Source: Nitrosospira lacus
GTDB taxonomy: Bacteria; Pseudomonadota; Gammaproteobacteria; Burkholderiales; Nitrosomonadaceae
Length of the DNA stretch: 64,000 nt
Assembly: GCF_000355765.4 (NCBI RefSeq)
Contig: NZ_CP021106.3
Coordinates: 653,137 to 717,136 of the forward strand
Direction: 5' to 3'
Within the stretch, counting starts at the first letter, position 1. The number at the start of each line of letters is the position of its first letter. Both the position numbers and the translations under genes were made by a program. This document shows positions 22,752 through 39,560 of the stretch, one piece after another. Below the pieces are notes generated by a model. It had not been told where the DNA came from. It made no database searches and saw only the letters and a list, made by a program, of their open reading frames with translations.

Positions 22752-22900
22752 ACTGCTAGACTGTCAGTAATAAAATGTTTACCTATCTGGAAGATAATGC
22801 ATGTTGTATGCCGTGGCTGCAAGTGGGGCATCAAATAATCATTAACCAAAAATAATGGAACGGTAATGCTGAAGAAAATGAGGGGGCCATTTTGAGCGGG

Positions 22901-24745
22901 TTGTGTGGCTGGATAGGCTACGGCACCACAGTTAATGAGAACTTGCAGCTTGTTCAGCGAATGGCTGGACCGCTTACCCGCTTCGATGGCGGCGAGGCTC
23001 GAACACTGGCTGCGGTGAACAGCGGCTTGGCGGTTGCGGCAACCGGTGATGGTGCGCAGGTTTACCAGAAGGAAGGGCTGCTCGTGGCACTGTGGGGACG
23101 AGCCGGCCTTAGCGATCCTCGCCTGGCCCAGCTTGCGCGCACCGATGGCATGGCAAAAACCTTGGCTGACAGCTGGCTGGAAAGAGGAGAGAAAGTCTTA
23201 GAAAGTCTCACAGGGGCATTTTCCCTTTGTATCCTGCATGAAAGGGAAAATGTGGCCCTTTTAGCTATAGACCGTATGGGTATCCACCCGCTTTCCTTCC
23301 AGATTTCAGGCGGATGCCTGGTGTTTGGCTCATCGGCGGATGCCATCATTTTGCATCCGCAAGTGAAATCCGCGATTTCCCCGCAAGGCATCTATAATTA
23401 TGTTTATTTTCACATGGTGCCCGCTCCCGGCACGATTTATCTGGAACAAAAGCGTCTTCTGCCCGGCGAATACCTGATCTACCGGAAGGGGAGCGTAGAG
23501 ACTCATAAATACTGGGAAATGCGATTCCTTGAGGACGAGAAGCGACCCTTCAAGGAACTTAAGCAGGATTTTATGGATGTATTGCGCTCAAGTGTGCTTG
23601 AGGCGATTGGGAAAGAGGAAGTCGGGGCTTTTCTGAGCGGTGGAACCGACAGTTCGACAATCGCCGGTATATTGGGAGAGGTAAGTGGCCAGCCGGCCCG
23701 AACTTACTCCATTGGTTTCGATGCCTCAGGTTATGACGAAATGGAATATGCGCGTATTGCGGCCCGGCATTTTTCCACCCGGCATAAAGAGTACTACGTC
23801 ACTCCCGATGATATTGTGACCGCTATTCCGCAGATCGCAGCGATTTTCGATCAACCCTTCGGTAACTCTTCCGCCATACCTGCCTTTTATTGCGCACGCA
23901 TGGCTAAGGAAGATGGCCTGAGCCGGATGCTGGGTGGTGACGGTGGAGATGAGTTGTTCGGCGGCAACGTGCGTTACGCCAAACAACATCTTTTTTCCCT
24001 TTATGAGCAAGTGCCTTCAATGATGCGCAAGGGGCTGGTCGAGCCGCTGGTTTTTGGCATGCCCGGTGGAGCTGCCTTGCCTCTGGTGCGAAAGGCCCGC
24101 AGTTACATAGAGCAGGCATCAATTGCGATGCCGGCGCGTACGGAAACTTATAACCTGCTGGAGCGTTATGGCCATGGAGAAGTCTTTACCCCGGAATTCC
24201 TGGCTACTGTCAATGCGGGCTATCCCGCTAGCCTCTTGAATGAAATCTACCATCAGAACAATGCTGATAGCCTGATAAACCGCATGCTTGCTTTTGATCG
24301 CAAGTTCACGCTCGCCGACAATGATTTGCCTAAAGTGGCAAAAGCTTGCGAACTGGCGGGAATGGACGTGGCGTTCCCCCTTATCAGCGACCAGATCACT
24401 GCTTTTTCTTTGCGGCTTGAGCCTCAGCTTAAGCTTAAAGGCACGAAATTACGTTATTTCTTCAAAGAAGCGTTGCGAGGGTTTTTGCCGGAAGAGATTA
24501 TCGCCAAGCAAAAACATGGCTTCGGCTTGCCTTTCGGTGTGTGGCTCCAACATCACAAGCCGTTGCAAGCCTTGGCTTCTGATAGCTTGACCGACCTCAA
24601 GTCACGGAACATCGTACGTGCCGATTTTATCGATACGCTGCTCGGGCAGCATCTGGATGAGCATGCAGGTTATCACGGTACCATGGTTTGGGTTTTGATG
24701 ATGCTGGAGCAGTGGTACCGGCAGCACGGAATTCACGGACAGTAG
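22901..24745 (+). CDS. Asparagine-synthase-like amidotransferase (XrtA block)
   Basis: About 614 aa with an N-terminal class-II glutamine amidotransferase domain and a C-terminal asparagine-synthase domain with the PP-loop FLSGGTDSSTIAGIL and later LGGDGGDELFGGN and KQKHGFGLPFGVW. Two TTG codons could start it. The one at 22901 gives Met-Cys-Gly, placing the catalytic Cys second as the Ntn mechanism requires. The one at 22892 gives MSGLCGWIG and sits better behind GAGGGGG, but it would bury the nucleophile. I chose 22901 for that reason. The enzyme probably amidates a sugar or amino-acid part of the exopolysaccharide. Confidence 0.83.
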   Translation: MCGWIGYGTTVNENLQLVQRMAGPLTRFDGGEARTLAAVNSGLAVAATGDGAQVYQKEGLLVALWGRAGLSDPRLAQLARTDGMAKTLADSWLERGEKVLESLTGAFSLCILHERENVALLAIDRMGIHPLSFQISGGCLVFGSSADAIILHPQVKSAISPQGIYNYVYFHMVPAPGTIYLEQKRLLPGEYLIYRKGSVETHKYWEMRFLEDEKRPFKELKQDFMDVLRSSVLEAIGKEEVGAFLSGGTDSSTIAGILGEVSGQPARTYSIGFDASGYDEMEYARIAARHFSTRHKEYYVTPDDIVTAIPQIAAIFDQPFGNSSAIPAFYCARMAKEDGLSRMLGGDGGDELFGGNVRYAKQHLFSLYEQVPSMMRKGLVEPLVFGMPGGAALPLVRKARSYIEQASIAMPARTETYNLLERYGHGEVFTPEFLATVNAGYPASLLNEIYHQNNADSLINRMLAFDRKFTLADNDLPKVAKACELAGMDVAFPLISDQITAFSLRLEPQLKLKGTKLRYFFKEALRGFLPEEIIAKQKHGFGLPFGVWLQHHKPLQALASDSLTDLKSRNIVRADFIDTLLGQHLDEHAGYHGTMVWVLMMLEQWYRQHGIHGQ

Positions 24746-25607
24746 CATTTTATTGCCCTCAACCCGGGATCCTATCCGCTTTTCTTTGTTGGGCCATGCG
24801 GCGTCCTGTCGCTGCATGTACGGTGGCCTGCTGTCATCCTGGGTGATGTGTGTGCAAGCGGGCGGCCGGAGTGATTCTATTGCTTCCGGCAGCAATTGCG
24901 CCGGATATTTTGCCGCCACTTCATCCGCCATATGGTTTCCCCGGCCGATGCCTGAAAAGTTTTCAGGCGCGGCTGAAGGGCAAGTGTGCCAGAACCCCCC
25001 TTCAGACTATATCCCAGGATTATGTGATCGAAGGCGCGTAATGCGCTACTCTACTCTGTGAAGCTAGCGGAAGTCATTCTGGCTTCCGCTCATTGTTTCT
25101 GGAGAGAAATCACATGACGTTGGAGACTGTTTTCTTGATATCTGCCGCCACTTGCGTAAACCGGCAAGGTCCCCCTGGCTTGGGGCGGACCTGTGCAACA
25201 CATCGCTGACCAGCTCCGCCAGGCAGGTTGTGTCGCTGCGGCTGCAAGAACCGGTCCGGCATTTCACCGTATTCTCGCCCGCTTGGGCGCCGTCAATTCG
25301 GGAATTTATTCGGTGTGTTCCGGATGATCGTCAACGTCATCTCCAATTCATCCGCGTGAGGGGCGACCGCCGTTTTACGCTTATGCCGTTGCGAATATCG
25401 GCATAGGTCGAGGCGCAAGGAAAAAATTCCGTGCTTCAGGTAAGAATGCTGTCTATGATGTAAGAAAATCTCCAAATAGACGACTCACGGTAGGCATGCC
25501 ATGATTCCGACCATGCACCATGCAATCGATAATGGAGGTTTCCTGAGAGATCCATGCAGTCGATCAATGGGGTTTTATCACGTCAATTTTATCCACAGGC
25601 AACCGCC
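24746..25607. other. 860-bp region with no supported gene
   Basis: Several overlapping short frames occur, but none has a good ribosome-binding site together with recognisable sequence. One inverted repeat is clear: AGCGGAAG at 25066-25073 and CTTCCGCT at 25083-25090, with a weak T-rich tail, which might be a terminator. The stretch separates the XrtA block from the arsM/pst cluster and could contain gene remnants and the cluster's promoter. Confidence 0.45.
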
Positions 25608-26306
25608 ATGACCGAGATTGCTCTGGTGCTCGTGTGCAAGCGGCCGTCATCGGGCCTCGCAAAACAGCGGCTGGCCGCAAGCCTGGGAAGGGAGGCGGCG
25701 GAGCGAATTGCCGAAGCGCTCCTCGCCTGTGCACTGGAGGACGCGGACGATTGGGACGGTCCGGTAGTCATCGCTCCAGCGCATCCCTCGGATCATGCCT
25801 GGGCCGATACGCTTTTACCGCGGTCGCGGCCGAAAGTGCGCATACAGCCACAAGCAGCGGGTAACCTGGGACAACGGTTGAACGGCCTGGATCGTGAACT
25901 GCGTAGAATGGGACTCGAACAGCTGGTTTACATCGGCAGTGATGCGCCCGCGCTTACGCCTGTCGATTACGCCGCGGTCAACAATGCCCTGTCTGCCCAT
26001 GACAGCGTGCTGATGCCGGCGGAAGATGGCGGCGTGGTGCTGATGGCAAGCCGCCATGAGTGGCCGATGCTGGGCGGTTTGCCGTGGAGTACTGCTCGCC
26101 TGGGTACAGCGCTAGCGGATTGTTGCCGCGCGGGGGGGCAGTCCGTCGCTACTCTTAAGCATGGCTTCGATGTGGACGAACACGGTGATCTCGTTCGATT
26201 GGCGACGGCACTGAGAATGGATCAACGTCCGGCACGGCGTGTATTACACGCGTTGGCTTGTGATCTCGTTCAACAAGGCCAACCGAGGGAAGCAGGGCAT
26301 GTTTAG
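25608..26306 (+). CDS. CofC-like glycosyl/nucleotidyl transferase (rSAM-linked type 1)
   Basis: A 232-residue protein of the TIGR04282-type family (transferase 1 of radical-SAM/selenodomain and arsenosugar-type clusters), related to the CofC/MobA nucleotidyltransferase fold. Visible are KRPSSGLAKQRLAASLG near the N-terminus, the metal-binding-like YIGSDAPALTP and EDGGVVLMA. The start at 25608 places the first strand (EIALVLVCKRP) at the N-terminus as in the family; a start at 25554 with an 18-residue extension remains possible. It is first of a tightly packed run and overlaps the next gene by 8 bp. Its role, perhaps glycosylating an arsenical or similar intermediate, is inferred from context. 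Confidence 0.8.
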   Translation: MTEIALVLVCKRPSSGLAKQRLAASLGREAAERIAEALLACALEDADDWDGPVVIAPAHPSDHAWADTLLPRSRPKVRIQPQAAGNLGQRLNGLDRELRRMGLEQLVYIGSDAPALTPVDYAAVNNALSAHDSVLMPAEDGGVVLMASRHEWPMLGGLPWSTARLGTALADCCRAGGQSVATLKHGFDVDEHGDLVRLATALRMDQRPARRVLHALACDLVQQGQPREAGHV

Positions 26307-26985
26307 CTTTAGTGCGATCATTCCCTGCTATCACGACGAGGCGAAGCTGGCCGATCTGCTCAACCAGTTGCAGAGCCTGCCGCATCGGCCGCTGGAAGCC
26401 GTGGTGGTGGATGGCGCTGACGACAAAGCGTGCCGCGAAGTGTGCGAGCAATACGGAGCACGCTGGCTGGCGGGGGAGCCTTGCCGCGGGCGCCAATTAC
26501 TGGCGGGGGCGGCGCTGGCGCAGGGTGACGTACTATGGTTTTTGCATGCTGACAATCGCTTGCCTCCCGATCCGGTGACGGCAATGGATCTCGCCATCAA
26601 GCGTGGCGCGGTGGGGGGCTATTTCCGATTTCGGTTCGATACTCCTCGCGCCTGGCCAGCGTTGCTGCTGGAACCGGCCATCGCATTGCGTTGCCGGTTT
26701 GGCGTTCCCTACGGGGACCAGGGGCTGTTCATGACACGCCAGGCCTATGCTGGCGCTGGCGGCCATTCGCCCTGGCCCTTATTCGAAGAGGTCTCCCTGG
26801 TGCGCGGATTGCGGCGCCTGGGGCGCTTTCTGCCTTTGCGCGAACCGCTCTTTGTCGATCCACGCCGCTGGCATCGCGATGGCTGGTGGCGGCGTACCTG
26901 GGTAAATCGCAATCTGGCGCTGGCTTTTGCGCGCGGCGTCGCGCCTGACCAGCTTGCGGTTCGCTACCGTTCAACAACTACCTGA
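26299..26985 (+). CDS. Family-2 glycosyltransferase (rSAM-linked type 2)
   Basis: A 228-residue GT2-fold protein of the TIGR04283 type (transferase 2 of radical-SAM/selenodomain and arsenosugar-type clusters). The N-terminal strand is FSFSAIIPCYHDE, the metal/nucleotide-sugar motif is LWFLHADNRLPPD and a downstream acceptor region reads GVPYGDQGLFMTRQAY. It starts inside the end of the previous gene (8-bp overlap), showing translational coupling. The pair of these two families next to a methyltransferase and a radical SAM gene is the recognised context of arsenosugar-like biosynthesis; the sugar and acceptor here are not known. Confidence 0.82.
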   Translation: MFSFSAIIPCYHDEAKLADLLNQLQSLPHRPLEAVVVDGADDKACREVCEQYGARWLAGEPCRGRQLLAGAALAQGDVLWFLHADNRLPPDPVTAMDLAIKRGAVGGYFRFRFDTPRAWPALLLEPAIALRCRFGVPYGDQGLFMTRQAYAGAGGHSPWPLFEEVSLVRGLRRLGRFLPLREPLFVDPRRWHRDGWWRRTWVNRNLALAFARGVAPDQLAVRYRSTTT

Positions 26986-27007
26986 TTTTCATAACGAGGC
27001 GATTACC

Positions 27008-28063
27008 ATGCATGACATTGTCAAGCAATATTACGGCGAAACCCTGACCAATTCACGTGATCTCCAGACCAACGCCTGCAAGACCGACGCGGGCTTGCCC
27101 GACTATGTGAAGCCGATACTGGCGCAGGTGCACAATGAGGTGTTGACCCGCTACTACGGCTGTGGGCTGGTGCTCCCCGAGTTGCTGGAGGATCTGACCG
27201 TACTCGATCTGGGTTGCGGGGCGGGCCGTGATGTCTACGTAATATCCAAACTGGTGGGGGAGCATGGCAGGGTAATCGGGGTGGATATGACTGAAGAGCA
27301 ACTGACAGTTGCGCGCCAGCATGAGGAGTATCATCGCAAGGCGTTTGGTCATGCCACCGGTAATGTTCTTTTTCTGCATGGCTATATCGAGCGCCTGTGC
27401 GAGCTCGAGCTGGCGGATAGCAGTGTGGACGTCATTGTGTCCAATTGCGTGATCAACCTTGCGCCCGACAAGGCGGCGGTGTTACGCGAAGCCTGGCGTG
27501 TTCTCAAGCCAGGCGGCGAGTTGTATTTTTCCGATATTTATACCGACCGTCGCGTACCCGGGGCGCTTGCCGGCGATCCGGTACTCTACGGCGAATGTCT
27601 GGGTGGAGCACTCTACTGGAATGATTTCAACCAGCTTGCGCGGGAGCATGGTTTTGCCGATCCGCGCCTGGTGGATGACCGTAAGATTGCCATTGGCAAA
27701 GCGGAACTGGCGGCGCGCGCCGGGAACATCCGCTTCTATTCCGCCACCTACCGGTTATTCAAGCTCGACAATCTTGAGTCGGCCTGCGAAGACTATGGCC
27801 AGTCAGTGGCTTACCGAGGGACGATACCGCATCACCCCCACTTGTTTGTACTGGATAAGCACCACCGTATGGAAACCGGAAAGCATTTCCCGGTCTGTGG
27901 CAACACATGGCGCATGCTGCACGATACTCGCTTCGCTGAACATTTCGAGTTCTACGGTAACTTCGAGCGGCACTATGGCATTTTTGCCGGCTGCGGTATG
28001 GGGCTACCTTATAATGACACCGCAAATGATTCCGAGAATAATCGTGCGGGCGGATGTTGTTAG
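27008..28063 (+). CDS. arsM: ArsM-like As(III) S-adenosylmethionine methyltransferase
   Basis: Class-I SAM methyltransferase of 351 aa. The SAM motif is VLDLGCGAGRDVY (about 65-77). Four cysteines occupy the positions expected of As(III)-binding ArsM enzymes: Cys24 (TNACKTD), Cys52 (YYGCGLV), Cys147 (VSNCVINL) and Cys197 (YGECLGG). A C-terminal extension carries CGNTW, AGCGMGLPY and a terminal Cys-Cys. ArsM converts arsenite to methylarsenicals in the cytoplasm. The start at 27008 lies 22 bp after the glycosyltransferase stop, and the radical SAM gene overlaps its end. Activity on another element such as Se or Te is possible but less likely. Confidence 0.82.
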   Translation: MHDIVKQYYGETLTNSRDLQTNACKTDAGLPDYVKPILAQVHNEVLTRYYGCGLVLPELLEDLTVLDLGCGAGRDVYVISKLVGEHGRVIGVDMTEEQLTVARQHEEYHRKAFGHATGNVLFLHGYIERLCELELADSSVDVIVSNCVINLAPDKAAVLREAWRVLKPGGELYFSDIYTDRRVPGALAGDPVLYGECLGGALYWNDFNQLAREHGFADPRLVDDRKIAIGKAELAARAGNIRFYSATYRLFKLDNLESACEDYGQSVAYRGTIPHHPHLFVLDKHHRMETGKHFPVCGNTWRMLHDTRFAEHFEFYGNFERHYGIFAGCGMGLPYNDTANDSENNRAGGCC

Positions 28064-29019
28064 TGCAAGCCGTGAAAGTCGCTCCCGCCAGCGCCGCACA
28101 GCCCGGCAGGTCCGAACACTGGCAACGTACTCCGGGTGATGAACGGCGTGGTTTTATCCAGCCGCATGCACTGGAGGAGTTGTGGTTTCACACGGGTACC
28201 GCCTGCAACCTCGCCTGCCCTTTCTGTCTTGAAGGCTCAAAACCGGGAGATGATCGCTTGCAAATGCTGCGGTTGGGCGATGCCATCCCATTTGTGGACG
28301 AGGCGCTCGACCTTGGCGTCAAGCAATTCTCCTTCACCGGGGGCGAACCTTTCATCAACAAGGATATAATAGCTATCCTCGATTACGCATTGATGCATCG
28401 GCCTTGCCTGGTGTTGACCAACGCAACCGAGCCGTTACTCAAGCGTCTGCAACAGTTGGAATCATTACGTAAGCGGCCGCACCCACTGAATTTCCGCGTT
28501 AGCCTGGATTATCCTGACGCCGTCCGGCATGACGCCGGGCGCGGCAGGGGCATGTTTGCACGCGCGCTGGAGGGCTTACGCAGACTTCATGACATGGGGT
28601 TCCGCGTATCGGTGGCGAACCAGCTCTTGCCGGACATCGCGCCGGATGCGGTCGCGGCGCATTTTGCCGACATTTTTCGTGCTGCCGGTTTACCCGGGGA
28701 TTTGCCGCGTATCGAATTCCCCGAATTTCATCCCCCTGGCACGCGCGTAACGCTACCGCAAATTACCGAGCACTGCATGACGGCCTTCCAGACCGAGGAG
28801 ACACGGCGCGCATTCATGTGCGCGTTCAGCAAGATGGTGGTGAAAAGCGGTGGCCGGATGCGTGTTTATGCCTGCACCCTGGTTGATGACGATCCGGATT
28901 ACATCCTCGGTGAAACGCTGACGGAAGCCCTGCAAATACCCGTGAGCATGAAACACCATCGCTGCCATAGCTGTTTCAAATATGGCGCCACTTGTAGCGA
29001 AATGAAAACGGGAAAATAA
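28054..29019 (+). CDS. Radical SAM protein of the arsM cluster
   Basis: A 321-residue radical SAM enzyme with the CX3CX2C cluster motif at Cys51, Cys55 and Cys58 (TACNLACPFCLEG) and the GGEP-type SAM-binding strand FSFTGGEPFIN. The C-terminal part has further cysteines: AFMCAFSKM, VYACTLVDD and HHRCHSCFKYGATCSEM, which could hold an auxiliary Fe-S cluster as in SPASM/twitch proteins. Usual arsenosugar clusters carry ArsS (radical SAM plus selenodomain, with a different Cys motif); this protein is not obviously ArsS. It starts within the arsM stop region (10-bp overlap). The reaction is unknown; adenosylation or alkylation of a methylated arsenical is a guess from context. Confidence 0.82.
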   Translation: MLLVQAVKVAPASAAQPGRSEHWQRTPGDERRGFIQPHALEELWFHTGTACNLACPFCLEGSKPGDDRLQMLRLGDAIPFVDEALDLGVKQFSFTGGEPFINKDIIAILDYALMHRPCLVLTNATEPLLKRLQQLESLRKRPHPLNFRVSLDYPDAVRHDAGRGRGMFARALEGLRRLHDMGFRVSVANQLLPDIAPDAVAAHFADIFRAAGLPGDLPRIEFPEFHPPGTRVTLPQITEHCMTAFQTEETRRAFMCAFSKMVVKSGGRMRVYACTLVDDDPDYILGETLTEALQIPVSMKHHRCHSCFKYGATCSEMKTGK

Positions 29020-29058
29020 ATGGCTGCGCGCGAGTCTTGATTTTTAGAGGCACCCGGG

Positions 29059-31197
29059 ATGAAACATTGGTGGTTGCTTATCATACTGGTGTTGTTGGCT
29101 GGATTGTTCTTCGCCTTTGATTTCCAGCGGTTCCTCAGTCTCGAAATGCTCAAGAACAGCCGGGATGAACTGCAACAAGCCTTTCAGGCGCAACCGCTGC
29201 AAGTCATTGGCCTCTATGCCGCGGCTTATATTGTCATAACCTCGCTTTCCCTGCCCGGCGCAACGTTGATGACGTTGGCCGGCGGTGCCGTCTTCGGGCT
29301 GTGGGTGGGAATTGCAGCGGCGCTCATCTCCGCCAGTATCGGCGCAACCGTGGCTTTCTGGACGGCACGCTACCTGTTTCGCGATGCCGTGCATCACCGC
29401 TTCGGCGGCCATATGACTGCAATCAATGCCGGCATTGAGCGTGACGGCGCATTTTATCTCTTCACTTTGCGCTTGGTGCCGGTATTTCCTTTTTTCGTGA
29501 TCAATCTCCTGATGGGGCTTACCGCCATGCGAACCGCAACGTTCTTCTGGGTCAGCCTGCTAGGGATGCTCGCCGGCACTGCGGTTTATGTCAACGCAGG
29601 AACCCAGTTAGGCACACTGACCAGTTTGTCCGGCATTTTGTCGCCATCGCTGATCGGATCGTTTGTTCTGCTGGCCGCCTTTCCGTGGCTGGCACGGCTG
29701 GGGCTGGAGCGTGTCAGGGAGAGCAGGGTGCGCGGCCACTGGCCCAGGTCGTCCAGGCCACGCCGATTCGATCGCAATCTGGTGGTTATCGGGGCCGGTG
29801 CGGCGGGCCTCGTAACATCATACATAGCAGCCAGCACGCGCGCCAAGGTTACATTGATCGAAGGCTACAAGATGGGCGGTGACTGTCTCAATTTCGGGTG
29901 TGTGCCTTCCAAGTCGCTGATTCGTTCGGCCGGCTTTTTGCGACAGGCCCGGCACGCCAAAGACCTTGGCATTGCCAGCGCAACCGTCGACTACAACTTT
30001 GGTGACGTGATGGCGCGTGTGCATCGGATCATCCGTACGGTGGAACCGCATGATTCAGTGGAACGCTATACGGAACTGGGGGTGGAAGTCATTCATGGCA
30101 ATGCGCGCATTACCTCCCCCTGGACCGTGGAGGTCAACGGGCGGACCATAACCACCTGCGCTATCGTCATCGCCACCGGCGCTGCCCCCGCCATCCCCCC
30201 GATTCCGGGATTGGAGCAGGTGTCGTACTATACGTCCGACACCATCTGGTCGCTTACCGAACGCCCGGAGCGGCTGGTCGTGCTAGGTGGAGGGCCGGTA
30301 GGCTGCGAGCTGGCGCAGGCATTTGCACGCCTGGACTGTCAGGTCACGCAAGTGGCGAAAACGTGTTTGATGGAACGTGAAGATGCGGATGCCGTTGCGC
30401 TGATTGAGGCGGCGTTGCGCGCCGATGGCGTGCGCGTATTGACTCAGACCGAGGCTATTCGCTGTGAGCGCGCATCCGGTCAGCAATGCTTGATGGTACG
30501 CTACCAGGATGGAACCGAGGAAGCACTTCCGTTTGATGCCATGCTGTGCGCAGTGGGAAGAACTGCCCGGACCAAGGGCTTCGGGCTGGAGGAATTGGGA
30601 ATTCCCATTTCACCCAAGCGTACCATTGAAACGGACGCGTGGCTGCAGACACTTTATCCCAACATCTACGCTTGCGGCGACGTGGCGGGGCCATACCAGT
30701 TCACCCACGTTGCGGCGCATCAGGGCTGGTATGCAGCAGTCAATGCACTGTTTGGTGCCGTGAAACGCTTTAAAGTGGATTACTCAGTGATTCCCTGGAC
30801 CACGTTTACCAGTCCTGAAGTCGCCAGGGTCGGGTTGTCGGAGGATGAAGCGAAGAAGCAGGGTATTTCCTATGAGGTGACACGCTACGGGCTGGAAGAC
30901 CTCGACCGCGCTATTGCGGATGAAGCGGCACATGGCTTTGTCAAGGTGCTCAGCGTGCCGGGTAAGGATCGCATTTTAGGCGTGACCATTGTCGGCGATC
31001 ACGCCAGTGACCTGCTGGCGGAATTCGTGCTAGCGATGAAACATGGTCTCGGTCTCAACAAAATACTCGGCACGATCCATACTTATCCGACTTGGTCGGA
31101 GGCCAACAAATACGCCGCAGGCGAATGGAGACGCGCACATGTGCCACATCGACTGCTTGATTGGGTGGAAAAATATCACGCCTGGCGGCGAGGCTAG
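29059..31197 (+). CDS. TVP38/TMEM64 - FAD disulfide-oxidoreductase fusion
   Basis: A 712-residue two-part protein. Residues 1 to about 225 are a TVP38/TMEM64 (DedA-superfamily) membrane domain, including TLMTLAGGAVFGLWVGIAAA, RLVPVFPFFVINLLMGLT and further helices. From about 239 a full pyridine-nucleotide-disulfide oxidoreductase follows: FAD motif LVVIGAGAAGLVTS, redox-active Cys276/Cys281 in GGDCLNFGCVPSK, NAD(P) motif LVVLGGGPVGCELAQ, YACGDVAGPYQFTHVA and a C-terminal dimerisation domain ending HTYPTWSEANKYAAG. The FAD half resembles mercuric reductase/dihydrolipoamide dehydrogenase without a mercury-binding N-domain. It may reduce a thiol-bound substrate at the membrane face; substrate unknown. 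Confidence 0.87.
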   Translation: MKHWWLLIILVLLAGLFFAFDFQRFLSLEMLKNSRDELQQAFQAQPLQVIGLYAAAYIVITSLSLPGATLMTLAGGAVFGLWVGIAAALISASIGATVAFWTARYLFRDAVHHRFGGHMTAINAGIERDGAFYLFTLRLVPVFPFFVINLLMGLTAMRTATFFWVSLLGMLAGTAVYVNAGTQLGTLTSLSGILSPSLIGSFVLLAAFPWLARLGLERVRESRVRGHWPRSSRPRRFDRNLVVIGAGAAGLVTSYIAASTRAKVTLIEGYKMGGDCLNFGCVPSKSLIRSAGFLRQARHAKDLGIASATVDYNFGDVMARVHRIIRTVEPHDSVERYTELGVEVIHGNARITSPWTVEVNGRTITTCAIVIATGAAPAIPPIPGLEQVSYYTSDTIWSLTERPERLVVLGGGPVGCELAQAFARLDCQVTQVAKTCLMEREDADAVALIEAALRADGVRVLTQTEAIRCERASGQQCLMVRYQDGTEEALPFDAMLCAVGRTARTKGFGLEELGIPISPKRTIETDAWLQTLYPNIYACGDVAGPYQFTHVAAHQGWYAAVNALFGAVKRFKVDYSVIPWTTFTSPEVARVGLSEDEAKKQGISYEVTRYGLEDLDRAIADEAAHGFVKVLSVPGKDRILGVTIVGDHASDLLAEFVLAMKHGLGLNKILGTIHTYPTWSEANKYAAGEWRRAHVPHRLLDWVEKYHAWRRG

Positions 31198-31206
31198 CAG
31201 GTTGCC

Positions 31207-32043
31207 ATGAGCATGAAAATATCGTCGACAACGCAGTATGTGATGTTAGCCGCGACATTATTGCTGGGATCTTGGAGCCTGTCCGGCAATGCCGCTTCAC
31301 AAAAACTGGTTTTGACTGGCGCCAGCACGATCGCCCCGTTGGCGGGAGAGATCGCACGGCGCTTCGAGGCATTCCATGCCGGCACGCGCATAGATGTGCA
31401 GACCGGAGGCTCCGCGCGCGGCATTAATGATGCCCGCAAGGGAATTGCCGACATTGGCATGGTGTCCCGTGCCTTGAAACCCGAGGAGAAGGATCTGCGC
31501 GCGCATACTATTGCCCTGGATGGTGTGGGCATCATTCTCCATGCAAGTAATCCGGTCGCCGTGCTAAGCACGCAGCAGATTGCCGGGATTTATACTGGCA
31601 AAATCCTCAACTGGAAGATCGTGGGGGGGCGCGATGCACCCGTCACTGTGGTCAACAAGGCCGAAGGACGCTCAACACTTGAACTGTTTTTGAGCTATTT
31701 TAAATTGAAGAACAGCGATATCAAGCCGCAAGTGATCATTGGAGACAATGCGCAGGGGATAAAGACCGTAGCTGGCAACCCGAATGCCATCAGCTACGTT
31801 TCCATAGGTGCGGCCGAATATGAAATAACGCATGGCACGCCGATCAAGCTGCTGCCGCTCAACGGCGTCGCGGCATCGGTGATCAATATACGTAACGGCA
31901 CTTTCCCGCTGTCGCGGCCGCTCAATCTGGTGACGCGGGAAGTGCCGCAAGGACTGGTACGGGATTTTATCGAATTTACCCGCTCGGAGCAGGTACATGA
32001 TCTGGTCGAAGCACAATATTTCGTTCCCATCAGCGTCCGCTGA
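31207..32043 (+). CDS. pstS: Phosphate-type ABC transporter substrate-binding protein PstS
   Basis: Periplasmic phosphate-binding protein of the short PstS type (278 aa). It has a signal peptide (MLAATLLLGSWSLSGNAAS) and the anion-binding loops LTGASTIAPLAGEIARRFE, GGSARGINDARKGIADIGM and NKAEGRSTLELFLSY. It starts 9 bp after the fusion gene and leads a pstSCAB set. Phosphate is the expected ligand, but arsenate is a close mimic and this set is embedded in an arsM cluster, so the physiological ligand is an open question. Confidence 0.86.
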   Translation: MSMKISSTTQYVMLAATLLLGSWSLSGNAASQKLVLTGASTIAPLAGEIARRFEAFHAGTRIDVQTGGSARGINDARKGIADIGMVSRALKPEEKDLRAHTIALDGVGIILHASNPVAVLSTQQIAGIYTGKILNWKIVGGRDAPVTVVNKAEGRSTLELFLSYFKLKNSDIKPQVIIGDNAQGIKTVAGNPNAISYVSIGAAEYEITHGTPIKLLPLNGVAASVINIRNGTFPLSRPLNLVTREVPQGLVRDFIEFTRSEQVHDLVEAQYFVPISVR

Positions 32044-32052
32044 CACCATGCC

Positions 32053-32889
32053 GTGGATAAGTTGATACTCAGGCTGCTGTGCGGTGGAGCAGGCATCGCC
32101 GCGACCCTGGTGCTGCTGATTCTCTTGTTCCTGGCGGTCGAGTCATGGCCTGCGCTACGGCATATACCGGCCGGGCGCTTTCTCACCGATCCGTCATGGA
32201 GCCCCGGAGAAAACATGTACAACCTGGCGCCGATGCTGTCGGGTACGCTCTACGCCGCAGGCGGGGCGCTGCTGGTGGCAGCGCCGTTAGGTATCGCTTC
32301 TGCACTGTTTGTTGCCTATTACGCCCCGCCTCGCGTTGCCGGCATATACCGGCGACTGATCGAGCTGTTGGCGGGCATTCCTTCCGTGGTCTATGGTTTT
32401 TGGGGTTTGACCACACTTGTGCCGCTGATTAACCAATTACATCCGCCGGGGGCCAGTCTGCTGGCCGGAATTCTGGTTCTGACACTGATGATCCTGCCTA
32501 CCATCGCATTAACCGCGCATGCTGCGCTATTGGCCGTCCCCGCAGAATATCTGCGCGGTGCGGCGGCGCTGGGCATGTCACGCTGGGGCATGATTCGCGG
32601 GGTTGCCCTGCCGACGGCAAGACCCGGCATCGTGGCCGGCATAATGCTCGCCGCCGGCCGCGCCATCGGTGAAACCATGGCCGTGCTGATGGTTACGGGC
32701 AACGTGGTGCGGCATGCGGATAGCCTGTTTGATCCGGTGCGTACGCTTGCCGCTAATATTGCGCTGGAAATGGCCTACGCCATGAATGACCATCGCGCTG
32801 CCCTGTTTGTATCAGGCCTGACACTGATGCTGATGGTCATGGCGCTCTCGGGCGTAGCCGGCTGGCTGGCGAGAAATCGTCATGCCTGA
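32053..32889 (+). CDS. pstC: Phosphate ABC transporter permease PstC
   Basis: Inner-membrane permease of 278 aa with six hydrophobic helices and the binding-protein-dependent transport (EAA-type) loop YLRGAAALGMSRWGMIRGVA, preceded by LLAGIPSVVYGFWGL, both typical of PstC. The start codon is GTG at 32053, nine bases after pstS. It pairs with PstA, whose gene overlaps its end by 8 bp. Shorter than E. coli PstC (about 319 aa), mainly at the N-terminus. Confidence 0.9.
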   Translation: MDKLILRLLCGGAGIAATLVLLILLFLAVESWPALRHIPAGRFLTDPSWSPGENMYNLAPMLSGTLYAAGGALLVAAPLGIASALFVAYYAPPRVAGIYRRLIELLAGIPSVVYGFWGLTTLVPLINQLHPPGASLLAGILVLTLMILPTIALTAHAALLAVPAEYLRGAAALGMSRWGMIRGVALPTARPGIVAGIMLAAGRAIGETMAVLMVTGNVVRHADSLFDPVRTLAANIALEMAYAMNDHRAALFVSGLTLMLMVMALSGVAGWLARNRHA

Positions 32890-33751
32890 AGCAGTTTCCA
32901 TGAAGCTGGCGCATGTCCATCGGGATCGCCTCGCGCAACTGGCCGTTTGCCTTGCTGCGTTCGTGGTCTGCGCCGCGTTTGCGTGGATAGTCGGTGATCT
33001 AGTGCGCGGCGGCCTGGGGCATCTTTCCTGGGGTTTTCTTGTCGATTCGCCGCGGGATGCCGGCCGTGCCGGCGGCATCGGTCCGATTCTGGTTTCCACC
33101 CTTCTTATCTTGCTGGTCGCCCTGATGGCGGCGCTCCCACTGGGATGGGCGACAGCCGCGCTGCTTGCCGAATATGTGTCCGCCAACAGCGGTTTTGGCT
33201 ACGCGGTGCGCTACAGCCTACAGGTGCTTGCCGGGGTGCCTTCCATTGTTTTTGGCCTGTTCGGCAATGCTTTTTTCAGTATTTATCTGGGTATGGGATT
33301 CTCCATTCTGTCTGGCGGCCTGACTCTGGCCTGCATGCTGCTGCCCATTCTCGTCAGTACCGCCGAGGCGGGTTTGCGCGCCGTTCCCGATTCGTATCGC
33401 CTGTCCGCCGCCGCATTGGGCATGTCGCGTGCAACAACGCTGTTCCGGTTGCTATTGCCGGCCGCCGCGCCGGCGCTGGCCGCGGGCCTCCTGTTAGGGA
33501 TCGGACGCGCCATCGCCGAAACCGCGGCACTATTGTTCACCAGCGGCTATGTCGACCGCATGCCGGGTTCGCTGCTGGACTCCGGGCGCTCCCTGGCGAT
33601 ACATATCTTCGATTTATCCATGAACGTATCCGGTGGCGATACGCCGGCGCACGCGTCGGTATTGGTACTGATCGCCGTGCTGCTGTTCATCAATATGGTC
33701 GCCATGCGGCTCACCGCCCGTTGGCAGCACGGAAAAATGGTACCGGAATGA
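32882..33751 (+). CDS. pstA: Phosphate ABC transporter permease PstA
   Basis: Second permease subunit, 289 aa, with six hydrophobic helices, the motif VLAGVPSIVFGLFGNAF and the EAA-type loop SYRLSAAALGMSRATTLFRL. The start overlaps the pstC stop by 8 bp, as expected for stoichiometric synthesis of the heterodimer. The protein resembles PstC throughout, reflecting ancient duplication of the permease. Confidence 0.9.
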   Translation: MPEAVSMKLAHVHRDRLAQLAVCLAAFVVCAAFAWIVGDLVRGGLGHLSWGFLVDSPRDAGRAGGIGPILVSTLLILLVALMAALPLGWATAALLAEYVSANSGFGYAVRYSLQVLAGVPSIVFGLFGNAFFSIYLGMGFSILSGGLTLACMLLPILVSTAEAGLRAVPDSYRLSAAALGMSRATTLFRLLLPAAAPALAAGLLLGIGRAIAETAALLFTSGYVDRMPGSLLDSGRSLAIHIFDLSMNVSGGDTPAHASVLVLIAVLLFINMVAMRLTARWQHGKMVPE

Positions 33752-33772
33752 ACTTAAAAGTGTTCCAATTCA

Positions 33773-34627
33773 ATGCATTCCGAGCCTGAGCAACCCATAA
33801 GCCCGGCCAATAATGCCTACACGCTTGGCCCGATGCAAGCGGGCCCGGTGTGTTGCGATCCGCAGCCCTTGATCCAGGTCGACAATTTTTCCCTTCATTA
33901 TGGTGTCAAGCCTGCGCTGGCCAACATTACACTGGATATCTACCGTGGCTGCATCACCGCCTTGATCGGTCCTTCCGGCTGCGGAAAAACCAGTTTCCTG
34001 TCATCGATCAACCGGCTTACGGATTTGATCCCAGGCTGCCGGATTACCGGTCGTATTCGCATAGAAGGTAATGACATTCATGATCCTTCCCTCAATGTGC
34101 AGGCGTTACGGCGGCAGATCGGCATGGTATTCCAGAAGCCAACCCCCTTTCCACTCTCAATCCATCGCAACATCGAACTGCCCCTGCACGAGCATGGTAT
34201 TACGCGGCGTGCCCATACGGGGGCCATCATCCGACAGGTATTGCAGGATGTCGGGCTATGGGATGAAGTGCATGACCGGCTGGACGCCCCCGCGCTGAGC
34301 CTGTCCGGCGGCCAGCAGCAGCGTCTTTGCATTGCTCGCGCGCTGGCGTTGAATCCACAGATCCTGTTGATGGATGAACCATGCAGCGCACTCGATCCCA
34401 TCGCTTCGGGAGTGGTCGAGGATCTGATCAGCCGGTTGCGCGGCCGCTATACTATCGTCATTGTCACCCATAATCTGGCGCAGGCGCGCCGCATTGCTAA
34501 CTACGCGGCATTTTTTTGGGTCCGGGGCCATGTCGGGCGCCTGGTTGAATTTGGTCATTGCCGCCAGATTTTTGAATCGCCTGCCCATGAACTTACTGCT
34601 GCTTACGTAAATGGAGCGAGGGGATGA
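33773..34627 (+). CDS. pstB: Phosphate ABC transporter ATPase PstB
   Basis: ATP-binding subunit, 284 aa: Walker A IGPSGCGKTSFLSSINR, Q-loop IGMVFQKPTPFPLSI, signature LSLSGGQQQRLCIARAL, Walker B ILLMDEPCSALDPIA and H-loop IVIVTHNLAQA. The combination of PSGCGKT(S/T)FLR-like sequence and QKPTPFP is diagnostic of PstB. The N-terminal 35 residues form an extra low-homology extension. No phoU follows, unlike many pst operons. It is the last gene of the cluster, and the next gene on the strand (nirK) is 434 bp away across a MITE-like element. Confidence 0.93.
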   Translation: MHSEPEQPISPANNAYTLGPMQAGPVCCDPQPLIQVDNFSLHYGVKPALANITLDIYRGCITALIGPSGCGKTSFLSSINRLTDLIPGCRITGRIRIEGNDIHDPSLNVQALRRQIGMVFQKPTPFPLSIHRNIELPLHEHGITRRAHTGAIIRQVLQDVGLWDEVHDRLDAPALSLSGGQQQRLCIARALALNPQILLMDEPCSALDPIASGVVEDLISRLRGRYTIVIVTHNLAQARRIANYAAFFWVRGHVGRLVEFGHCRQIFESPAHELTAAYVNGARG

Positions 34628-34727
34628 TCGGGATGAAAAACCCTTTTATCGTCATGCCCATATGAAGGTAATTTAGCATGGACAGGTATATGTTAAAGCT
34701 GTATAGTTGCCGAGCCTTCGCTCTTTA

Positions 34728-34968
34728 GGGCATCTCTAAGAATTCGAATACAGCGGCAATGGGCTATTGCTCCTCGATCGCCAAATGAGACTATTTTCCT
34801 GCCTGCCGGATCTGCGCGGCGAGAGGTTGTTTGCGCCCCTCGCCCCTTATGGCTGTTGCGGGTCGCTGCGGGCAAGCGCGTTGCCGAGGTTGCTGACTGG
34901 GCACGGGGGATGAATCCAGGCGAGTGCGCGCAAGGATCTGGCCGGGAATCGAGTTTTTAGAGATGCTC
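34728..34968. mobile_element. MITE-like element with 20-bp terminal inverted repeats
   Basis: The left end GGGCATCTCTAAGAATTCGA (34728-34747) and the reverse complement of the right end, GAGCATCTCTAAAAACTCGA (34949-34968), match at 17 of 20 positions. The 241-bp interior holds no transposase, so this is either a miniature element or an insertion-sequence remnant. A clear target-site duplication was not seen. The core AGAGATGCTCTT recurs at 41929-41940, after the hao cluster. It lies directly upstream of nirK and could affect its promoter. Confidence 0.6.
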
Positions 34969-35061
34969 TTCAGAAAAGGGTGAGATGTTAGCCATAGAAT
35001 GCCGGGCGGAAAGAAATGGCGCATGGATATGCGCGGTAAATAAACATTTATGGAGGGAAAC

Positions 35062-36162
35062 ATGAACAAAGTTGTTCGAGGGGCAATCGGATTCGGATTG
35101 CTGTGTATGAGTGCCGGTGCGGCCATGGCGGCGACGGACATTTCCAAATTGCCGGTGGTCACCCAGAACCTGGTGGCCCCGCCTTTTGTGCCCCAGCATG
35201 ACCAAGTGGCCAAAGGGGGTCCCAAAGTCGTCAAGGTACGCATGGAGACCATAGAAAAGCTGGTGCAGGTCGCACCGGATGGCACCAAGATGTGGGCACT
35301 GACTTTCAACGGCACGGTTCCCGGTCCGCTGATCGTCGTGCACCAGGATGACTATGTGGAACTGACACTGGCCAACCCGAAGACCAGCACCATGGCACAC
35401 AACGTTGACTTCCATGCGGCCACTGGCGCGCTGGGCGGAGCCGGCCTGACGCTGGTGGCGCCGGGCGAAGATGTGGTATTGCGCTTCAAGGCGATCAAGG
35501 CCGGGGTATTTGTCTACCACTGCGCCCCGGGTGGCACCATGATTCCGTTCCACGTCATTTCGGGCATGAACGGCGCCATCATGGTATTGCCGCGCGATGG
35601 CCTGAAAGACAACAAAGGCAAATCGGTGCGCTATGACCGGGCCTACTACATAGGCGAGCAGGATCTCTATCTGCCCAAGGACAAGGACGGGAAATACAAA
35701 GTGTACTCCCAGCCTGCCGAAGGCATGGCTGAAATGCTCGACGTTGCCAAGGGACTCATCCCCACCCATGTCGTCTTCAATGGCGCGGTCGGTGCGTTGA
35801 CGGGCGACAATGCGCTCAAGGCCAAGGTGGGCGAGAAAGTGTTGTTCATTCACTCCCAGGCCAATCGCGATACCCGGCCTCACCTGATTGGCGGCCATGG
35901 CGATCTGGTATGGCAAGGTGGCAAATTCAGCGACCCCCCCGTCACCAATCATGAAACCTGGTTCATTCCGGGGGGTGCCGCAGGTGCTGCGTTGTATGAA
36001 TTCAGACAACCCGGGCTGTATGTGTACCTCAGCCACAACCTGATCGAGGCGGTGTTGCTGGGTGCTGCGGCGCACATGAATGTCGAGGGCACATGGAACG
36101 ACGATCTCATGAAGCAGCTCAAGAAGCCGAATGAGAATTCAACCCCGGCGATGGATCACTAA
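35062..36162 (+). CDS. nirK: Copper nitrite reductase NirK
   Basis: Periplasmic two-cupredoxin-domain enzyme reducing nitrite to NO. All copper ligands are visible: type-1 His in TMAHNVDFH, Cys and the type-2 His in YHCAPGGT, His and Met in [11 protein letters not shown]; further type-2 ligands are the second His of NVDFHAA and the His in [10 protein letters not shown], with the active-site Asp in HNVDFH and the His in RPHLIGGH. A signal peptide ([19 protein letters not shown]) precedes. The start at 35062 has GGAGGG upstream; an in-frame ATG at 35050 would swallow that site. In ammonia oxidisers NirK supports aerobic ammonia oxidation and nitrite tolerance. Unlike N. europaea, no ncgABC genes precede it. 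Confidence 0.95.
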
Positions 36163-36189
36163 AAAAGAATCCATTAGTATCCTGTCCGG

Positions 36190-36224
36190 CGCGGCTTCAA
36201 CCTTACGTTGAAGCCGCGTTTTTT
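36190..36224 (+). terminator. Rho-independent terminator after nirK
   Basis: A perfect 12-bp stem (CGCGGCTTCAAC at 36190-36201 with GTTGAAGCCGCG at 36207-36218), a 5-nt loop and TTTTTT immediately after. It ends the nirK transcript and isolates it from haoA. Confidence 0.93.
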
Positions 36225-36297
36225 ATGGAATGGATGCCCAGGCGGAATATGGTTTCTGAACGATTTCGTAAAAATGATGTCCAGGTGCGCAATTTTC

Positions 36298-36326
36298 TTG
36301 ACACAGTGCTGTTGCCGGGTTAGGCT
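36298..36326 (+). promoter_or_regulatory. Candidate sigma-70 promoter of haoA
   Basis: A perfect -35 box TTGACA at 36298-36303 is followed after 17 bp by TAGGCT at 36321-36326, which matches three of six -10 positions. It sits 138 bp before the haoA start, downstream of the nirK terminator. The -10 is weak, so the call is tentative. Confidence 0.4.
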
Positions 36327-36463
36327 AGGCGGTGTTCGTCAAGGTAATTCTGTGCTACTTTCGGGTTTTTCAGAATTAAATTAGGGTGGGCTATTGGCGT
36401 AACGCGATAGTCCAGACGGATCAGGCATCAAAAAAACAATTAATACGGATAAGGAGAAGAGAG

Positions 36464-38173
36464 ATGGTAGTGAAGCTTGGGCTGAGGCTCATCACGCTGA
36501 CATGCGGGGCGCTGCTGGCGGCGTCGTCATGGGCGAACTATCCCAGCGTCCCGAAAGAGACGTACAAAGCGCTGAATCTGGAACAAACGGCCACGCCCAA
36601 GGAATTGCATGAAGCGGTGACCAAGCGCTACAAGGACCCGGCGCAAGGGGCTGGGCGGGGGACGCTGGCCAAGTACTGGGAGCCGGTGCCGTACAGCATG
36701 TACATGGACCCTGCCTCCTTCTACAAGCCGCCGACCTCGATGAAGGAAGTGGCGGAGCGTCAGGAATGCGTCAAGTGTCACACGGACGAATCGCCGGTAT
36801 GGGTGAATGCGTGGAAGAAGAGCACGCATGCCAACCTGGACAAGATCCGCAACCTGAAGCCGGACAGCCCGATCTACTACAAGAAAGCCAAGCTGGAAGA
36901 CGTGGAGAAGAACCTTCGCTCCATGAACCGGCTGGGCGCGAACGAAAAGCTGAAGGAAGTGGGGTGTATCGACTGTCACGTCGACATCAACACCAAGAAG
37001 AAGGCCGACCACATGACCGACCTTCGCATGCCCACGGCTGACGTATGCGGCACCTGCCACCTGCAGGAATTTGCCGAACGCGAATCCGAGCGCGACACCA
37101 TGGTATGGCCGAACAAGCAATGGCCGCAGGGACGTCCCTCGCATGCGCTGGACTGGAAAGCCAACGTAGAAGTTGCGGTATTTGCCGCCATGCCGCAGCG
37201 CGAGATAGCCGAAGGCTGCAGCATGTGCCACACCAACCAGAACAAATGCGACTCCTGCCATACCCGGCACGAATTCTCCGCGGCCGAATCGCGCAAGCCC
37301 GAAGCGTGCGCCACCTGCCACAGCGGGGTGGACCACAACAACTGGGAAGCTTACTCCATGAGCAAGCACGGCAAGATCGTATCGATGATGGGCGACAAAT
37401 GGAACTGGGAAGTCTCGCTCAAGGACGCCTACGCCAAGGGTGGCCAGACCGCCCCGACCTGCGCGGGGTGCCACTTCGAATATGAAGGCAAGTACAGCCA
37501 CAACGTCACGCGCAAGATACGCTGGGCCAACTACCCGGCCGTGCCCGGCATAGCCGAGAACATCAACAGCGAATGGTCGGAAGCGCGGCTGGACTCCTGG
37601 GTCAAGACCTGCACCCAGTGTCACTCCGAGCGTTTTGCCCGCTCCTACCTGGAATTCATGGACAAAGGCACCCTGCACGGCCTGGCCAAATTCAAGGAAG
37701 CGCATGCAGTCGCCGAGAACCTCTACAAGGACGGCCTGCTCACCGGACAGAAGACCAACCGTCCGGCGCCGATGGCACCGGACAAGGAAATGTTCGCCGG
37801 CTTCACCCAGCTCTACTGGTCCAAGGACAACAACCCCGCGGCGATCGAACTCAAGGCGCTGGAAATGGGAGAAAACGACCTGCCCAAACTGCACGTAGGC
37901 CTGGCCCACGTCAACCCGGGCGGCTGGACCTACACCGAAGGGTGGGGCCCGATGAACCGCGCCTACGTCGAAATCATGGACGAAAACACCAAGATACGCG
38001 AAATGGCGGCGCTGCAGGCCCGGGTAGCCAAGATGGAATCACGCCGCACCAGCCTGCTGGACCTCGACAGCAAGGATGACAAGCTCTCGCTGGGCGGCCT
38101 GGGCGGCGGCATGCTGCTGGCTGGCACCCTCGCGCTGGCTGGCTGGCGCCGGCGCGAAAAAAGCGGGCATTGA
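36464..38173 (+). CDS. haoA: Hydroxylamine oxidoreductase HaoA
   Basis: Periplasmic octahaem enzyme that oxidises hydroxylamine (to NO/nitrite) in ammonia oxidisers. Eight CXXCH motifs are present in order: CVKCH, CIDCH, CGTCH, CSMCH, CDSCH, CATCH, CAGCH and CTQCH. The segment [15 protein letters not shown] contains the likely tyrosine that cross-links to the P460 haem of the neighbouring trimer subunit. A signal peptide ([16 protein letters not shown]) and a C-terminal hydrophobic tail ([17 protein letters not shown]) flank the 569-residue protein. The start at 36464 follows AAGGAGAAGAG. Codons end very often in C or G, as in highly expressed genes. haoB overlaps its stop. Confidence 0.97.
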
Positions 38174-39336: not shown

Positions 39337-39403
39337 GGCGGGCCGCCCCGTCAGCGGGCAGCCCGCCATCCGGGGGCTGGTTGACGGATGAGACTCCCGC
39401 AGC

Positions 39404-39445
39404 GGTACCAGTGGTACCACAAAGAGTCATGGTACTGGTGCTACC
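39404..39445. other. Imperfect inverted repeat between haoB and cycA
   Basis: GGTACCAGTGGTACCA at 39404-39419 faces TGGTACTGGTGCTACC at 39430-39445; 12 of 16 positions pair, and GGTACC occurs twice in the left arm. No U-run follows. In the 224-bp haoB-cycA spacer it may mark transcript processing, attenuation or a protein-binding site. Confidence 0.4.
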
Positions 39446-39560
39446 CGTTTACATCAACCAGCGATAAAGTACCGTCATAAAATACAGTATGGACATCACT
39501 GGGTTTTTTATAACATAACAACAGCTATCAACGGATATACTTGCCCCGAAGGAGAAAACC

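Follow-up and report, generated by a model that had tools for sequence, protein, structure and literature searches.

Two radical S-adenosylmethionine (SAM) enzymes, ArsS and ArsL, are named as forming carbon-arsenic (C-As) bonds in the accessible portions of the literature. According to PMC8552651, ArsM and ArsS act together in Synechocystis, and ArsL has 428 amino acids (aa), its motif being at residues 194-201. Here we describe a nine-gene operon at positions 25608-34627 of a 64,000-nucleotide (nt) stretch of Nitrosospira lacus (contig NZ_CP021106.3, positions 653,137 to 717,136 of the forward strand; hereafter the window), whose genome consists of one contig of 3.26 Mb. The operon combines arsM with an unnamed radical SAM enzyme. 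Judging from the sequence comparisons below, it is rather probably an arsenosugar-type operon in which ArsS has been replaced by a distinct radical SAM family, one that would carry out an ArsS-like adenosylation of methylated arsenic.

All nine open reading frames lie on the plus strand, co-directional and tightly packed. Three neighbouring pairs overlap, at 26299-26306 (8 nt), 28054-28063 (10 nt) and 32882-32889 (8 nt), and the remaining gaps measure 22, 39, 9, 9 and 21 nt; a single transcript for the nine genes is therefore likely. A preliminary description of the DNA had located the genes and their overlaps at exactly these coordinates. The identities it gave them (two transferases, an ArsM, a radical SAM enzyme, a membrane-redox fusion and PstSCAB) agree with the NCBIfam and Pfam profile scans by which the families were assigned:

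25445-25464, plus strand: conserved element resembling a promoter, about 140 nt ahead of gene 1
25608-26306, plus strand: gene 1, DUF2064/TIGR04282-type protein with a CofC-like nucleotidyltransferase fold (232 aa)
26299-26985, plus strand: gene 2, TIGR04283 family-2 glycosyltransferase (228 aa; 191.1 bits, cut-off 182)
27008-28063, plus strand: gene 3, arsM, arsenite S-adenosylmethionine methyltransferase (351 aa)
28054-29019, plus strand: gene 4, unnamed radical SAM enzyme, proposed C-As bond-forming adenosyltransferase (321 aa; PF04055, 63.9 bits)
29059-31197, plus strand: gene 5, VTT (TVP38/DedA-like) membrane domain fused to a MerA/lipoamide-dehydrogenase-like flavin disulphide oxidoreductase (712 aa)
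31207-32043, plus strand: gene 6, pstS-like substrate-binding protein (278 aa; TIGR02136, 161.6 bits, cut-off 206.6)
32053-32889, plus strand: gene 7, pstC permease (TIGR02138, 252 bits, cut-off 196.45)
32882-33751, plus strand: gene 8, pstA permease (TIGR00974, 221.9 bits, cut-off 193.45)
33773-34627, plus strand: gene 9, pstB ATPase (TIGR00972, 328.8 bits, cut-off 343.2)

An alternative start of gene 1 lies at 25554. In what follows, rSAM stands for the radical SAM family of gene 4, GTcof for the type of gene 1 and GT2 for the type of gene 2.

The exchange with ArsS is seen in two relatives of the window, G397 of the same genus and G311 of the same family. Both carry ArsS together with VTT-MerA, TIGR04283, a TIGR04282-type protein, arsM and pstSCAB; compared with the window set, gene 4 is exchanged for ArsS and a DUF547 gene is added. 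The genes were assigned by tblastn with the window proteins and an ArsS protein over the TIGR04167 cut-off, and TIGR04283 was over its cut-off in both. With the same eight partners around ArsS, the operon is therefore a variant of the ArsS-type cluster in which the radical SAM enzyme is another one. The preliminary description, which knew of no characterised system with this exact set, is not supported on this point: its interpretation took the right direction and over-stated the uniqueness. The genomic partners typical of ArsS (arsM, TIGR04282, TIGR04283 and VTT-MerA) are all found in the window operon. Among 19 ArsS loci, VTT-MerA was present within 8 kb in 17, arsM in 10, GTcof in 17 and GT2 in 16, the loci having mostly been picked for ArsS and TIGR04283 on one contig, so that the GTcof and GT2 counts are not a free sample.

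Gene 4 also shares the arrangement of its cysteines with ArsS. In alignment A1 (the window and 59 of 66 dereplicated loci), C51, C55 and C58 (the CX3CX2C motif), C118, C241, C256, C274, C304, C307 and C314 were invariant in 60/60 rows. In alignment A2 (17 of the 19 clustered ArsS proteins and 4 of 20 further ArsS matches), the same held for C32, C36, C39, C102, C132, C250, C265, C304, C307 and C315 across 21 sequences. Profile comparison of the two families extended over 266 columns (97.3%, E 1.8e-11) and placed in register the C-terminal cysteines of the patterns MC, YxC and HxCx2Cx6-7C, which characterise ArsS and are all present in gene 4. Pairwise, gene 4 is 19-20% identical to ArsS and 25% to an HpnH-like protein of its own genome. 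The nearest radical SAM homologue in that genome (L002, 35% identity over residues 50-219) is taken, by inference, to be HpnH. The AlphaFold2 (AF2) model of gene 4 has a predicted local distance difference test (pLDDT) score of 88.5, and structure search returned distant twitch/SPASM-type relatives, SkfB, BlsE and MoaA first, with a best query-length TM-score of 0.59 among the 50 rows listed.

The preliminary description would have been refuted by a radical SAM protein of a standard family; the 25 best NCBIfam matches (of 42) of gene 4 are all below cut-off. Two candidate assignments were rejected, HpnH-type by cut-off (46.9 bits, cut-off 225.05) and ArsL-type by length and motif position (321 aa, CX3CX2C at 51-58). 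No published description of the rSAM family or of the operon was found in the open-licence PubMed Central (PMC) literature, judged by title and the start of the abstract among the matches listed; the accessible parts of PMC13171826, PMC8787705 and PMC13188914 hold nothing on the rSAM family.

The association of rSAM with its partners extends well beyond the genus. A scan with one genome per species confirmed 145 rSAM relatives, of which the best 80 were kept, and among named records the rSAM and arsM of the window are nearest to Nitrosospira. Partners were counted within 8 kb, and loci flanked on either side of rSAM by 4.5 kb or more formed the full-flank set. In the group with at least 64.5% identity to the window rSAM, 24 of 39 loci had full flanks; GTcof, GT2 and arsM accompanied rSAM in 24/24, MerA-like genes in 19/24 and all four pst genes in 7/24, the last being a lower bound, for 4.5 kb is sometimes too short to reach pstB. 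In the more distant group (n=22) the counts were 18 for GTcof, 19 for GT2, 9 for arsM, 6 for MerA and 0 for pst. Such recurrence makes a chance association unlikely: the operon is a recurring module. Counts out of 89 given below refer to rSAM loci, which include 12 from G genomes, some of the same species as a named record, so that a few species are counted twice, and in which some contigs are short.

By genome, rSAM occurs in 68 of 125 members of the window's family, in 15 of the 23 listed genomes of the same genus and in 6/258 of the class sample, one of the six (G616) being a remote sister. Elsewhere in the class, G547 carries VTT-MerA, rSAM, arsM, GT2, GTcof and a PiT-like gene; G553 a methylthioadenosine (MTA) phosphorylase, rSAM, arsM and GTcof; G635 GTcof, TVP, MER, GT2 and rSAM; and G554 VTT-MerA, rSAM and arsM, with ArsS-type transferases on another contig.

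A sister of rSAM, 37.7% identical, was found on the Roseomonas plasmid p546-1. It adjoins a TIGR04282 protein over cut-off, DUF547, a TrsS-like radical SAM protein (under cut-off), a phosphonate-type ATP-binding cassette (ABC) importer and a metallophosphoesterase, and a VTT protein and a MerA-like oxidoreductase lie nearby on the opposite strand. The two adjacent radical SAM genes of this plasmid (L197:5067-12027), TrsS-like and rSAM sister, form a second cluster variant. G616 has the same sister family as p546-1, with ArsS-type transferases on another contig and ArsS undetected. In Nitrosomonas supralitoralis (L055) and in L170 (G381, possibly the same species), GTcof, GT2 and rSAM each give a second, partial match beside VTT-MerA, in L170 also beside pst, which gives the impression of a partly duplicated cluster in decay. 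On the Marinobacter adhaerens plasmid pHP-187 an rSAM match came in two pieces, and the incomplete gene table of the plasmid has neither a gene under the match nor a partner close to it. Within the genus, Acr3 is confined to G392 and G403, neither of which has rSAM; these genomes are too few to support an inverse relation of the two genes.

The occurrence of TIGR04283 follows that of ArsS closely, and rSAM accounts for part of the remainder. In the order sample (n=300), TIGR04283 was over cut-off in 93 genomes, ArsS was present in 92 and both occurred in 88; TIGR04283 stood alone in G000, G015, G146, G242 and G264, and the first three, all of the window's own family, carry the window rSAM. In the class sample (n=258), TIGR04283 was matched at E<=1e-40 in 141 genomes and exceeded its cut-off in 132 of them; for ArsS the numbers were 132 and 129, and both families were present in 129. 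ArsS was present in 0/6 of the class genomes with rSAM (Fisher p = 0.013, counting the own genome and G616), and five of the six had a TIGR04283 match, under cut-off in G547 and G635. That rSAM and ArsS strictly exclude each other was ruled out by G311, which has both, and by G109, which has ArsS with a 34%-identical sister of rSAM.

Natural combinations of the two cluster types exist. The locus L099, a 12.8-kb contig without ArsS, holds rSAM with ArsS-type GT2 and GTcof, besides VTT-MerA, arsM and PiT, and G554 likewise has rSAM and ArsS-type GT2 and GTcof with ArsS undetected. These combinations suggest that rSAM may supply ArsS-type downstream enzymes.

From gene content and family relations we infer the following course of reactions. 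Arsenate, which enters cells through phosphate importers, would be imported by Pst along with phosphate and then reduced, and the membrane-bound MerA-like flavoenzyme would possibly hold arsenic trivalent. ArsM would methylate it to dimethylarsenite, and rSAM, like ArsS, would couple the 5'-deoxyadenosyl radical to arsenic to give 5'-dimethylarsinoyl-5'-deoxyadenosine. An enzyme of MTA-phosphorylase type, encoded in the cluster of some relatives and elsewhere on the chromosome here, would strip adenine, the CofC-like protein would activate the arsenic-bearing ribose, and the TIGR04283 glycosyltransferase would move that ribose to an acceptor, for instance glycerol or a lipid.

Gene 3 has as its best solved relative the arsenite methyltransferase 5evj (353.6 bits, E 1.1e-104), and it falls under the cut-offs of three NCBIfam models (PRK11873 174.6 vs 263, NF038099 80.7 vs 400, NF040538 134.4 vs 500). 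Its cysteines C24, C52, C147, C197, C297, C350 and C351 are kept in at least 95% of 76 rows; we take the first four to be the arsenic-binding ones, and the preliminary description likewise gave the protein all four arsenic-binding cysteines. Because they are kept, the "organo-element" compound of that description can probably be narrowed to arsenic.

Gene 5 matches PF09335, PF07992 and PF02852 at 84.5, 205.7 and 103.2 bits, and its redox-motif cysteines C276 and C281 are kept in at least 95% of 62 rows covering both cluster types. Gene 1 matches PF09837 (DUF2064) over cut-off at 61.3 bits and reaches 114.5 bits on TIGR04282, under its cut-off of 134. Its AF2 model (pLDDT 94.3) has as best Foldseek hit 3cgx, a putative nucleotide-diphospho-sugar transferase, followed by Rv2983 and by 3-phosphoglycerate guanylyltransferase, and K19, R21, D112, D140-G-G (140-142), D188 and D190 are kept in at least 95% of 99 rows. 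As the fold is closest to that putative transferase and to CofC-type guanylyltransferases and these residues are conserved, an activating nucleotidyltransferase is plausible.

A candidate for a further step is an MTA-phosphorylase paralogue, which lies between rSAM and GT2 in 6 of the 89 rSAM loci (L079, L090, L098, L103, L111 and L114, all Motiliproteus or Neptuniibacter) and adjoins rSAM in G553. Enzymes of this type cleave adenine from 5'-substituted 5'-deoxyadenosines, an activity that would fit an adenosylated arsenic intermediate. The own genome has one copy outside the cluster, which at 272.7 bits is just below the MTAP cut-off of 274.85.

Phylogenies of the partners were calculated by quick searches without bootstrap, from 76 rows for arsM and 66/98 rows for GT2 (Nitrosomonas rows thinned); alignments A3 and A4 covered 27/75 arsM loci and 27/66 GTcof loci, respectively. 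Eight of the ten ArsS-cluster arsM and one from a contig cut before ArsS formed one group (99 SH-aLRT), separate from the rSAM-cluster arsM also inside the window's family; the arsM of the ArsS loci L149 and L150 were remote from both. All 15 ArsS-cluster GT2 formed one group too (99 SH-aLRT), with the GT2 of the rSAM locus L099 nested inside. In some genomes of the family a TIGR04283-like domain was also noticed away from the cluster, at L167 (around 8080), L168 and L169, in open frames of about 660-700 codons, possibly a fused transferase.

Several results weigh against a simple replacement of ArsS. On the ArsS model TIGR04167 gene 4 reaches 39.6 bits, the cut-off being 300, and it has no DUF3641 (PF12345) match, with Radical_SAM the sole domain at E<=0.01 (the ArsS control L118 gave 190.3 on DUF3641). 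Its core aligns with the own-genome HpnH-like protein, a control that was a single sequence and not a profile, at least as well as with ArsS (98.0%, E 1.7e-13, 157 columns without the C-terminal part). The presence of both cluster types in G311 means that the types need not be equivalent. Identity of the window GT2 and GTcof to their counterparts in ArsS clusters is about 29-38%, against mostly about 56-68% for arsM, MerA and pst (exceptions L149 and L150, arsM 32%), so that the sugar step may differ. The MTA-phosphorylase link concerns seven loci, none of them Nitrosospira; arsM stands near 62/89 rSAM loci and pstS within 8 kb of 14/89. Moreover, 7/12 class genomes with TIGR04283 and without ArsS lack rSAM of the window family, and in the order genomes G242 and G264 (the latter a single contig) neither enzyme is near the transferases; TIGR04283 therefore does not always accompany ArsS or rSAM. 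Some of G242, G264 and the seven class genomes may rely on another radical SAM enzyme or be incompletely assembled.

The failed ArsS cut-off and missing domain, the retention of both cluster types in G311, the position of rSAM-cluster GT2 outside the ArsS-type group with L099 as sole exception, and the segregation of arsM largely by cluster type would suit a radical SAM enzyme making a different C-As bond, with another SAM group or substrate and a product unlike known arsenosugars. We regard this as possible, though unlikely, given that rSAM and ArsS have a common layout of C-terminal cysteines and an identical partner set, that MTA-phosphorylase is nearby in seven loci, and that L099 and G554 are natural combinations with ArsS-type transferases. 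It is similarly doubtful that rSAM and its sister family (p546-1, G109, G616) constitute a further C-As route, to an organoarsenical nucleoside or sugar unlike oxo-arsenosugars; the makers would then be ammonia-oxidising and marine bacteria, and the route would be kept beside the ArsS pathway in at least G311.

Explanations without a C-As bond of the adenosyl kind appear weaker still. ArsM alone is a known detoxification enzyme (PMC12159101), and 27/89 rSAM loci lack arsM within 8 kb, as would be expected if the operon served detoxification by methylation, with ArsM as the sole arsenic gene and phosphate uptake and envelope sugars beside it by chance. Such an arrangement is improbable, for the partner genes recur jointly in distant genomes, the reading frames overlap, and methylation alone requires neither a radical SAM enzyme nor a TIGR04282/TIGR04283 pair. 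A pathway on phosphorus or another element, leading to a phosphonate-like or selenium compound with an ArsM homologue of changed substrate, would be in line with the phosphate- or phosphonate-type importers and with the phosphate-binding proteins 4gd5 and 4q8r as best solved relatives of gene 6. It has little to recommend it when the arsenic-binding cysteines of ArsM are kept as described, when the solved arsenite methyltransferase is matched at 353.6 bits and when arsenate is known to use phosphate importers to enter cells. Hardly credible at all is a role of gene 4 as an ArsL-type enzyme for an arsinothricin-like amino acid: ArsL also acts with ArsM on arsenite, but BgArsL has 428 aa with CX3CX2C at 194-201 and lies in arsQML (PMC8552651), whereas gene 4 has 321 aa and the motif at 51-58, no arsQ is among the nine genes, and sugar transferases are present.

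The replacement of ArsS by rSAM remains the reading we prefer, with the importer as an accessory. Against the curated cut-offs, PstC and PstA are over and PstB and PstS under, so the four components do not all pass. With pstS near so few of the rSAM loci, Pst is a local addition to the cluster; as an essential part it was ruled out by the 0/22 full-flank loci of the more distant rSAM group. Elsewhere in the own genome there are two weak PstS-like places (26% and 24%), the surroundings of which gave only one weak pstB match, so that a dedicated role for the Pst of the operon found no support. A PiT-type gene lies within 8 kb of ArsS in L151, L156, L161 and L163 (PHO4 confirmed for L163) and in the rSAM loci L099 and L211 (tblastn); no pst genes were matched in these six clusters, nor in the stretch analysed for G547, whose PiT-like transporter was found by tblastn at 38%. 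Across clusters with pst, PiT or Phn-type importers, a phosphate-like oxyanion importer of some kind therefore recurs, and most rSAM loci have none of the importer types looked for. No arsR, arsC or arsB is among the nine genes, in keeping with the preliminary description, and Acr3 efflux gave no match in the own genome, where ArsB, ArsC and ArsR were not searched genome-wide. Its proposal of biosynthesis coupled to oxyanion uptake keeps its direction, with no Acr3 match and recurring partners, and loses the importer as more than an accessory; the operon still looks less like plain resistance than like organo-arsenic biosynthesis combined with the uptake of oxyanions.

Upstream of gene 1, the 20-nt element at 25445-25464 has a single match in the window at up to 3 mismatches and 0 in 100 shuffles. 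It is present in 11/13 aligned Nitrosospira-group rows including the window (L037 and L182 are without it), and a degenerate form, drawn up after the alignment had been inspected, is found in 10 Nitrosospira-group loci, once in each and always ahead of gene 1, and the loci searched contain no further copy. The element is absent from the sigma-70 scan listing; consensus promoter and terminator scans were not above shuffles (7 vs 6.9 and 10 vs 11.8), and Rfam at gathering threshold gave no RNA element in 22700-36400. Directly downstream of the operon, 35050-40268 holds a gene for copper nitrite reductase (TIGR02376, 494.8 bits) and genes for multihaem cytochromes, which presumably resemble the hydroxylamine oxidoreductase cluster of ammonia oxidisers; the sole NCBIfam match of these cytochrome genes was hydrazine dehydrogenase, far below cut-off. 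A 14-pair hairpin with a T run follows the nitrite reductase gene at 36188-36220, the first-listed terminator-like site of the scanned stretch. Upstream, 21516-24745 is an exosortase A/PEP-CTERM locus with the TIGR03099 decarboxylase over cut-off and the XrtA-type amidotransferase under.

If rSAM is a third, unnamed C-As family, nitrifiers of soil and wastewater and marine Oceanospirillaceae would join the organisms likely to make complex organoarsenicals, with a bearing on which organisms produce arsenosugars in soils and waters. For the steps after adenosylation, the MTA-phosphorylase encoded in some clusters and gene 1 with its CofC-like fold are concrete candidates.

Among known systems, the best-scoring NCBIfam model for gene 4 is the Rv1681 family of radical SAM enzymes (NF049973), yet at 104.7 bits against a cut-off of 380. 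The adenosyl-hopene transferase HpnH, to which the nearest homologue in the own genome is taken to correspond, performs 5'-deoxyadenosyl addition, and the window enzyme falls far short of its model, as scored above. The arsinothricin cluster of Burkholderia gladioli, as PMC8552651 presents it, resembles the window in combining ArsM with a radical SAM enzyme, ArsL, that forms a C-As bond; it consists of arsQ, arsM and arsL, and its ArsL is larger, with the motif elsewhere than in rSAM. From ArsS itself, rSAM differs by an identity of about 20%, a score far below the ArsS cut-off and the absence of DUF3641. DUF3047 and DUF547 neighbours occur, by clustering, in 8 and 6 of the 19 ArsS loci vs 3 and 1 of the 89 rSAM loci, looser tblastn finding DUF547 also in the rSAM loci L099 and L212. 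ArsS-type clusters share with the window arsM, the TIGR04282 and TIGR04283 proteins and the VTT-MerA fusion, and in G397 and G311 pstSCAB too.

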